Assembly: GCA_947494705.1 (NCBI GenBank) | Contig: CANLVN010000003.1 | Span: forward strand, 558,001 to 622,000 | Reading direction: 5' to 3' | Length of the DNA: 64,000 nt | Origin: an uncultured Erythrobacter sp. | GTDB lineage: Bacteria; Pseudomonadota; Alphaproteobacteria; Sphingomonadales; Sphingomonadaceae | Shown: one piece after another, positions 15,408 through 18,067 of the stretch | Numbering within the stretch: position 1 is the stretch's first letter | How the letters are laid out: every line of letters begins with the position of its first letter | Translations under genes and position numbers: made by a program | Notes under the pieces: model-generated | Database searches by the model: none | Told to the model about the DNA's origin: nothing | What the model saw: only the letters and a program-made list of their open reading frames with translations

Positions 15408-15812
15408 TCAGCCTTGGATCGCGCGCGCATCCTCGAACACGCGTTCCACCTCCAGCACGAGATCGCGCAGGTGGAATGGCTTGGACAACACCTTGGCATG
15501 CGGTTGTTCGCGGCTTGCGCGCAGCGATACCGCGGCAAAGCCGGTGATGAACATCACCTTGGTCCGTGGCGAAACCTCCGCGCATCGCTGCGCGAGTTCG
15601 ATCCCATCCATTTCGGGCATCACAATGTCCGAAAGCAGCAGGTCGAACTCTTCGCTCTCCAGCAATGGCAAGGCATCGGTCCCGCGATCGACGCTGACGA
15701 CTTCGTAGCCTGCTTTTTCGAGCGCACGCACGAGATAAGCGCGCATGGCGTCCTCATCCTCGGCGAGGAGAATCCGTTGTCGCGAGCTTTCGGGGGAGTG
15801 AATTGAATTCAT
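15408..15812 (-). CDS. cpdR: Single-domain response regulator, CpdR-like
   Basis: 'RILLAEDEDAMRAYLVRALEKAGYEVVSVDRGTDALPLLESEEFDLLLSDIVMPEMDGIELAQRCAEVSPRTKVMFITGFA...KPFHLRDLVLEVERV'; receiver only. Start at MNSIHS. Confidence 0.82.
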   Translation of the reverse strand: MNSIHSPESSRQRILLAEDEDAMRAYLVRALEKAGYEVVSVDRGTDALPLLESEEFDLLLSDIVMPEMDGIELAQRCAEVSPRTKVMFITGFAAVSLRASREQPHAKVLSKPFHLRDLVLEVERVFEDARAIQG

Positions 15813-15996
15813 GTCCGCCACATACCTCAATCCACTTAAGAAATCTTTCTTCGACCACACAGATTGTCACCTGTGCCCTCATTTGAGACGGATTGAAGAT
15901 CGTGGTGGAGAACGCAGGTTAACATCGGTGCGCATGATTTGCGGGCGTACCCACATCGGCCTTTACACGGACACGGGAAAGCGGCAGCACCGATTC

Positions 15997-16998
15997 ATGC
16001 CTGCATTCCCGCTATCTTCATCCGGAAAGCCGTCGAACGACGTGTTTCCCGGCGACCTGATAACGCGCAGGGGAGGGCGCATCTCAGCCAACGAGGATGC
16101 TGCGGCCTTTATCCATGTCGCACCGCGCATGATGCCATTGCCGGTGCTGGTTTCCGTGCCGCATGCAGGAAGGTCCTATCCCGAGAATGTGCTGGCCAAT
16201 ATGCGCGATCCGCAACTCAGCCAGCTTCGGCTAGAGGATCGGCACGTCGATGCGCTGGGAGTGGAGATTGCGCGGGCCACCGGGACCGGACTGCTTGTGT
16301 CGCATGCACCGCGCGCGATGGTCGACCTCAACCGGGCGGAAGACGACGTCGACTGGGAAATGATCGCGCCGAGCCGGGAAGATGAGCCGCGGGCTCGCCG
16401 TACGGCGGCGGGGCCTGTAGGTACCAATGCACGGGCACGCAGCGGGTTGGGGCTGGTGCCGCGCCGTTTGCCGGGATTCGGAGAAATCTGGCGCCAGCGC
16501 CTCGACCGCGAGGAACTGGACCGCCGGATCAGGGAAGTTCACCAGAGCTATCACGAATTCCTGGGACAGGAACTGGCGCGCATCCGTGACGAATGGGGCG
16601 CGGCCTTGCTGATCGATCTGCATTCGATGCCGCCGCTGCGCCCTACAGATGGCGAAACCGCCGCGCCACGCATCGTGCTGGGCGACCGGTTCGGTGCGAG
16701 TTGTCACAACGCTCTGATCTCCAGGGCTTTCGGGTATCTGGACCGAGAGGGCTGCGCGGCCGCGCACAACCGACCTTATTCGGGCGGTTATGTCCTCGAT
16801 CGCCACGCCGATCCGCGCAATGCGATCCACGCAGTGCAGATCGAGGTGTGTCGCTCCGCCTATCTCGACATCGGCCTGTCGAAGCCGAGCGCCGCGCTCG
16901 GCCCGTTGGCAAAGATGCTGGCTGGCCTGGTCCGCGAGCTGGGTGCGCAAACAGCCGGTCTGGGTAATCGCGGCGATATGCCGCAGGCAGCGGAATAA
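15997..16998 (+). CDS. N-formylglutamate amidohydrolase family protein
   Basis: 'PVLVSVPHAGRSYPENVLANMRDPQLSQLRLEDRHVDAL', 'LLIDLHSMPP', 'GGYVLDRHADPRNAIHAVQIEVCRSAYLD'. Start uncertain (15934 also possible). Confidence 0.8.
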   Translation: MPAFPLSSSGKPSNDVFPGDLITRRGGRISANEDAAAFIHVAPRMMPLPVLVSVPHAGRSYPENVLANMRDPQLSQLRLEDRHVDALGVEIARATGTGLLVSHAPRAMVDLNRAEDDVDWEMIAPSREDEPRARRTAAGPVGTNARARSGLGLVPRRLPGFGEIWRQRLDREELDRRIREVHQSYHEFLGQELARIRDEWGAALLIDLHSMPPLRPTDGETAAPRIVLGDRFGASCHNALISRAFGYLDREGCAAAHNRPYSGGYVLDRHADPRNAIHAVQIEVCRSAYLDIGLSKPSAALGPLAKMLAGLVRELGAQTAGLGNRGDMPQAAE

Positions 16999-17035: not shown

Positions 17036-17081
17036 AAAAAAAGGCCACCTCTCGCGTAAAGGGGGAAAGCAAGAGGTGGCC
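17036..17081 (-). terminator. Intrinsic terminator of the candidate sRNA
   Basis: Perfect 10-bp stem GGCCACCTCT/AGAGGTGGCC followed by T7 on the minus strand. Confidence 0.8.
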
Positions 17082-17148
17082 AGGTTCAGGGAGGATAGCG
17101 CCCCGAAGGGCGCGTCCCGGACGGCGAATGAGGGGGTAGCCGTCCGTG
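17036..17148 (-). ncRNA. Candidate intergenic small RNA (three hairpins, C-rich loops, own terminator)
   Basis: On the minus strand: CGGACGGC/GCCGTCCG hairpin; GCGCCC-TTCG-GGGCGC; linker TATCCTCCCTGAACCT; GGCCACCTCT/AGAGGTGGCC hairpin (17043-17081) followed by TTTTTTT. Promoter-like TTGAAC-N17-TATCTT directly upstream. Confidence 0.6.
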
Positions 17149-17153
17149 CGTTT

Positions 17154-17182
17154 AAGATAAGAAAAGGGCGGCCTACGTTCAA
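17154..17182 (-). promoter_or_regulatory. Putative sigma70-type promoter inside the sapC terminator
   Basis: Minus strand -35 TTGAAC (17182-17177), 17-bp spacer, -10 TATCTT (17159-17154). Confidence 0.45.
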
Positions 17183-17196
17183 TACGTAGGCCGCCC
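17166..17196 (-). terminator. Intrinsic terminator of the SapC-family gene
   Basis: Perfect 13-bp inverted repeat GGGCGGCCTACGT/ACGTAGGCCGCCC followed on the minus strand by TTTTCTTATCTT. Confidence 0.8.
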
Positions 17197-17254: not shown

Positions 17255-18067
17255 TTACATTGAGCCGTTCGGAATTTCCGGCGTTTCCGCATCAGGCATC
17301 GGCACCTTGCCCTGCGCACTTTGACGCTCGAAAACCTGACGCATCAGGTTCAATGAGAACAGGTGCGCGTGGATCAGCATCAGCATGCCGCTCTTGTTCA
17401 GCGCATCGACCGTCTCGCTGGGCAGTTCGCGAAGCTTCTGTTCGTCGATCATGCGGAAACCGCGATAGACGAAAGGCTTGTCGGGCATGTCGTTGCGGGT
17501 GATCGCGATCTCGCCATCCATCATGATGTCGAGCTTCTTGATTTCTTCGAGGAAGGCGCGGGTACGCTGGCCCGATTCCTCGAAGCGCTTGCAGAATTCG
17601 AGCACGCCGTTGGTGTATTCGGTCGGCTTTTTCGCGCCGTCATCACCGTCTTCGAACAGCGCCTGGCCTTCCTTGTCCTTGCCCACGACGTTAGCCGATG
17701 GGTCGAAGCACAGTGACATGTCCTCGCTGTTCTGGTTGAGGCGCGCGAGGATGAACGGATAGCGGCGGATGTAGGCGGGCACATAAAGGCCGGCTTGCAG
17801 CTTACCGTTCTCTTCCATGAAGGTGTTGACGCCTTCATTGAGGCCCATCAGCGCGATCGGCAGCGGATTATCGCCGGCGGTGAAGACGATCGGGTAACTG
17901 CGCTGCGCATCGACGAATTCGTCTACGGTGAGCGGGATAGCGTGGCTGTCGGCGACGAAACCTGCATCTTCGAACGGGCCGACTTTCCAGTCGGCGTGGT
18001 CCTTGGAATTGAGCGGAAGCAGGTCCTTGTAGAACAGCGGAAGTTGCGGCTGCGGCGCGGTGGCCAT
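17255..18067 (-). CDS. SapC family protein
   Basis: 'LPLFYKDLLPLNSKDHADWKV..AIPLTVDEFVDAQRSYPIVFT...IALMGLNEGVNTFM..YVPAYIRRYPF' SapC-like; SD GGAGAG before ATG at 18067. Confidence 0.85.
   Translation of the reverse strand: MATAPQPQLPLFYKDLLPLNSKDHADWKVGPFEDAGFVADSHAIPLTVDEFVDAQRSYPIVFTAGDNPLPIALMGLNEGVNTFMEENGKLQAGLYVPAYIRRYPFILARLNQNSEDMSLCFDPSANVVGKDKEGQALFEDGDDGAKKPTEYTNGVLEFCKRFEESGQRTRAFLEEIKKLDIMMDGEIAITRNDMPDKPFVYRGFRMIDEQKLRELPSETVDALNKSGMLMLIHAHLFSLNLMRQVFERQSAQGKVPMPDAETPEIPNGSM

Follow-up and report, generated by a model that had tools for sequence, protein, structure and literature searches.

A probable FGase-linked alpha-r8 small RNA in Erythrobacter-group Sphingomonadaceae

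Known alpha-r8 RNAs and the sapC-FGase locus

The alpha-r8 RNAs (MmgR/suhB/SisA) are a known class found across the Alphaproteobacteria, and they are represented in Rfam by RF00519 (suhB, now mmgR) with a curated gathering cut-off of 41 bits. The gene for N-formylglutamate amidohydrolase (FGase) is their standard neighbour; in Caulobacter, the copy beside it is SisA (PMC12559287). Two further members have been described: MmgR of Sinorhizobium meliloti, a 77-nt RNA with three stem-loops and an anti-Shine-Dalgarno (anti-SD) motif (PMC7143759), and the 61-nt SuhB of Sphingopyxis granuli TFA, an Hfq-dependent repressor of thnR translation (PMC6563040).

In the window (the whole stretch of 64,000 nucleotides that was analysed), we identified an alpha-r8-type sRNA gene from its structure, a sub-threshold RF00519 match and its homologs. 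The approximate transcript (17036..17148, minus strand) is about 112 nt long, running from 17148 to 17036. Its 5' neighbour is sapC (17255..18067, minus strand; PF07277, E 2e-67), and its 3' neighbour is a convergent FGase gene (15811..16998, plus strand; PF05013, E 1.5e-59). The RNA resembles SisA of Caulobacter crescentus (PMC12559287) in its FGase neighbour, in the anti-SD core 3' of a hairpin, in its intrinsic terminator and in having additional copies elsewhere in the genome. However, its core is UAUCCUCCCU rather than UUUCCUCCCU, it carries a conserved C-rich loop in the 5' hairpin, and its Rfam score is under the cut-off. With MmgR it shares the three stem-loops, the anti-SD motif (PMC7143759) and the RF00519 model, but MmgR is shorter and the sole alpha-r8 copy, whereas the window RNA is one of at least two. 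SuhB is likewise a sphingomonad RNA of the suhB group (PMC6563040), but besides being much shorter it may correspond to another copy. A weak match to SorX (RF02784) on the same stretch (19.2 bits, E 0.022) was far under the SorX cut-off of 46.6 bits.

Fold, covariation and transcription unit

On the minus strand, the RNA opens with an 8-bp 5' hairpin (hairpin 1, 17118..17146) with arms CGGACGGC/GCCGUCCG and the loop UACCCCCUCAUUC at 17138-17126. Hairpin 2 (GCGCCC-UUCG-GGGCGC, 17098..17113) and the unpaired anti-SD core UAUCCUCCCUGAACCU (17082..17097) follow; the columns of this core are near-invariant, and it corresponds to the alpha-r8 core (PMC12559287). The intrinsic terminator (17036..17081) has the arms GGCCACCUCUUGC/GCGAGAGGUGGCC, a loop UUUCCCCCUUUAC containing CCCCC, and a U7 tail. 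The sequence-only reading had described the 8-bp hairpin, the C(UUCG)G hairpin, the linker and the U7, all of which are present in the sequence and in the fold; its terminator stem of 10 bp has to be corrected to 13 bp, one U-G pair included. The minimum free energy was -59.3 kcal/mol, compared to a mean of -37.2 for shuffled sequences (z -7.1), and none of 200 shuffles reached it. In the single-sequence ensemble, the loops of hairpin 1 and of the terminator are open, with a probability of being unpaired of at least 0.85. Within the window sequence, the core is open just in part, because its initial UCC (about 0.2 unpaired) has an alternative pairing with GGA, while the remainder stands at 0.7-1.0.

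The same sequence-only reading had proposed covariation in homologs as a check, and compensatory changes were found in three of three stems. In a model-fitted alignment of 76 sequences, standard pairs filled 95% of the pair cells, and 21 of the 26 pairs showed compensatory change (8/8 in helix 1, 5/5 in helix 2 and 8/13 in helix 3, the terminator). When the partner was slid out of register, only 37-53% of the cells were paired. A smaller MAFFT alignment agreed for helix 1, where 6 of 8 pairs were compensatory. RNAalifold recovered the terminator as the sole structure from the first MAFFT alignment, because the hairpins shift register there; with a structure given by hand and then the model-fitted alignment, all three stems were recovered. 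The structure of alignment A2 came from the window's own sequence and alignment A3 was fitted to the model, so that the pair counts lean toward the structure. Controls by shuffling and sliding were taken as support rather than proof. Stems 1 and 2 are variable in sequence, with information of about 0.65 bits per column, whereas the core with its linker (1.57) and loop 1 (1.12) are conserved. Conservation and covariation show an RNA structure beyond chance.

A putative promoter, TTGAAC-N17-TATCTT (17154..17182, minus strand), sits about 33 nt upstream of the RNA. Of the 32 loci listed from the genus, 30 have TTGAA at a near-fixed distance upstream of the RNA, and the strict pattern was present in 28 of 76 loci, compared to a mean of about 1 in shuffles. 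A plain sigma-70 consensus scan placed the element under its threshold and did not call it. The sapC terminator hairpin (17166..17196, minus strand) carries the -35 box in its loop, an arrangement that recurs in the genus: by a fold test, 29 of 43 same-genus loci and 10 of the 33 remaining loci have their -35 inside the loop of a hairpin. The U-tract of the sapC terminator extends into the spacer and the -10 of this promoter (17196-17154, minus strand).

It might be supposed that there is no separate sRNA gene, and that the RNA is a tandem terminator of sapC or a 3' UTR processed out of the sapC mRNA. In the genus, the RNA does lie immediately 3' of sapC on a common strand. However, the strong sapC terminator is located upstream of the RNA, the promoter-like element is conserved at a near-fixed distance, and in other families of the order the RNA adjoins FGase at loci that gave no sapC match. 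We consider this explanation improbable. An own terminator downstream of that of sapC, as had been proposed from the sequence, was indeed found. The reading as a stand-alone, probably trans-acting sRNA is well supported by the conserved promoter-like element, three covarying stems, the conserved anti-SD core and the wide matches to a three-stem covariance model built from the window's genus (R1), which cover 192 of the 251 genomes and 64 of the 72 genera sampled from the order.

Relation to RF00519

At the Rfam gathering thresholds, only tRNAs were reported within the window. A lax search, in which the sequence-only reading had suggested including RF00519, returned a match of this model at 17118-17028 that spans the whole model (1-77) with E = 3.7e-5, though at 32.3 bits it is under the curated 41 bits, which is why annotation misses the RNA. 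The terminator lies directly 3' of the core, as expected of an alpha-r8 RNA, and the FGase gene is adjacent, an arrangement kept in relatives. We conclude with high confidence (a probability of roughly 0.9) that the locus is an FGase-linked alpha-r8 (suhB/MmgR/SisA) sRNA in the form of Erythrobacter-group Sphingomonadaceae. Because the curated cut-off is not reached, we use the term divergent ortholog of the alpha-r8 locus rather than RF00519 member. The RNA is not a new class, and the novelty implied by the sequence-only reading is not supported: it is a diverged copy of alpha-r8/suhB, the very family which that reading had named as making it "described".

The forms in other families bear on this assignment. 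R1 matches alpha-r8 RNAs throughout the class as well. In other families of the order, eight loci had exactly UUUCCUCCCU (UUUCCUCCCUGA) as their core, and seven of the eight were over the RF00519 cut-off, at 46.6-59.5 bits. FGase stands beside the RNA in six of the seven; it was not found there at the highest-scoring locus (L102) or at the one just under the cut-off (L098). The simplest reading of the sequences is a single orthologous locus across the order that has diverged in Sphingomonadaceae. A new sRNA family, similar to alpha-r8 only by convergence on an anti-SD core ahead of a terminator, would fit the low score of the window RNA and the fact that none of 20 loci from other Sphingomonadaceae genera reached the cut-off. 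However, the RNA occupies the same position beside FGase as alpha-r8 does in other families, full-length matches were obtained in both model directions (RF00519 and R1), and intermediates over the cut-off share UCCUCCCUGA; such graded forms largely refute a separate origin, which we regard as very unlikely. An AbcR/alpha-r15-type RNA, which in length and layout (three stem-loops, two CU-rich anti-SD motifs, about 114-120 nt; PMC7143759) resembles the RNA in question, is the least probable of all, as the FGase synteny and hairpin 2 suit alpha-r8 and the ar15 model RF02345, run against the entire genome, gave nothing at E <= 1.

C-rich segments, proposed function and variation within the genus

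The three C-rich segments emphasized by the sequence-only reading are not equally conserved: the core and loop 1 are kept, whereas a C-run in the loop of the terminator is confined to 28 of 76 sequences and marks a sub-lineage. The core 10-mer of the window is identical to alpha-r8 UUUCCUCCCU at 9 of 10 positions, and its CCUCCC is kept in most relatives. At three loci (L120, L121 and L123) the core lacks CCUCC and CCCCCUCA-like motifs occur in the terminator loop, as if the seed had moved. In Sphingomonadaceae, the loop 1 motif is CCCUCAU in 62 of 76 sequences and CCCCUUU in 6 of 76. A 5' hairpin upstream of alpha-r8 is present in most FGase-linked loci elsewhere in the class, but it is variable, and its loop was C-rich in only 1 of 26 other alphaproteobacterial FGase-linked loci (single-sequence folds, approximate). 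The fixed C-rich loop of hairpin 1 is therefore a Sphingomonadaceae trait and apparently the new part; in a literature search whose reach did not include the primary description of MmgR, it was not reported in anything found.

The FGase-linked alpha-r8 RNA of Sphingomonadaceae may be a two-seed regulator, in which loop 1 (CCCUCAU, or CCCCUUU in some genera) would be conserved as another pairing site, with targets distinct from those of the ancestral core; some Erythrobacter relatives have a third C-run as well, in the loop of the terminator. We put the chances for and against this reading at about equal. Should loop 1 prove to be a second seed, the family would illustrate how an sRNA can acquire a set of targets once the loop of a pre-existing hairpin becomes fixed.

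Most likely, the RNA acts in trans with the help of Hfq and blocks ribosome binding sites via its core, and perhaps via loop 1 too. Transcription would start near 17148 from the promoter embedded in the sapC terminator and end at the RNA's own terminator, where the U-tail is expected to be bound by Hfq. The unpaired CCUCCCUGAACC core would pair with the Shine-Dalgarno regions of mRNAs, and in Sphingomonadaceae hairpin 1, whose CCCCUCAU loop is exposed, may offer a second pairing site there. SisA represses mRNAs via the same core with Hfq (PMC12559287), and SuhB of Sphingopyxis represses thnR (PMC6563040); by analogy with these RNAs in carbon metabolism, pairing would probably lower translation of the target mRNA. 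The window's genome encodes hfq. This Hfq (L132, G000:C3:846794-847219) is encoded in one open frame of 196 aa and carries a tandem pair of Hfq domains.

A genome scan for targets of the extended core (CAGGGAGG-N-ATG) gave 8 matches, compared to 6 for the reversed pattern, and thus no enrichment. One of the 8 was acsF (loci L136, L141-L170), encoding the bacteriochlorophyll cyclase, a gene with a match in 84 of the genus's 114 genomes. The Shine-Dalgarno sequence of acsF, GGGAGGAUCAAAUG, was invariant in the 30 relatives read. We do not count acsF as evidence for regulation, because GGGAGGAUCAAAUG is a plain strong Shine-Dalgarno sequence and coincides in part with the 3' end of the reading frame upstream.

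Judged by its named loci (E. longus, Qipengyuania, Porphyrobacter and others), the genus belongs to the Erythrobacter group. Similar DNA was found in 55 of its 114 genomes and R1 matches in 67 of 114, and all 34 same-genus homologs examined first were located between sapC and FGase. The sapC-FGase gap was read in 19 of the 47 members without an R1 match; the RNA was absent from all 19 and is thus dispensable in those genomes. The loci with clean absence (L171-L189, L199-L202 and L204) form a natural knockout set. In E. sanguineus and E. dokdonensis, the RNA persists with a decayed core (AAUUCCCCUGAACC). A single genus thus offers a natural experiment, in which the gap may hold the RNA, hold it with a decayed core, or lack it. 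For the alpha-r8 RNA of a large family of ecological importance (sphingomonads, aerobic anoxygenic phototrophs), the locus also supplies a form that can be tested and that the Rfam cut-off misses.

RF00519 matched at E <= 1 in all 114 genomes of the genus and over the cut-off in 92 of them. In the window's own genome, the copy that passes scores 43.1 bits (L067, G000:C2:675379-675458), and because another copy passes, the window RNA could have diverged in role. The core of this second copy is AUCCUCUCCCAAAC, and it lies near a gene for CoA-transferase subunit A.
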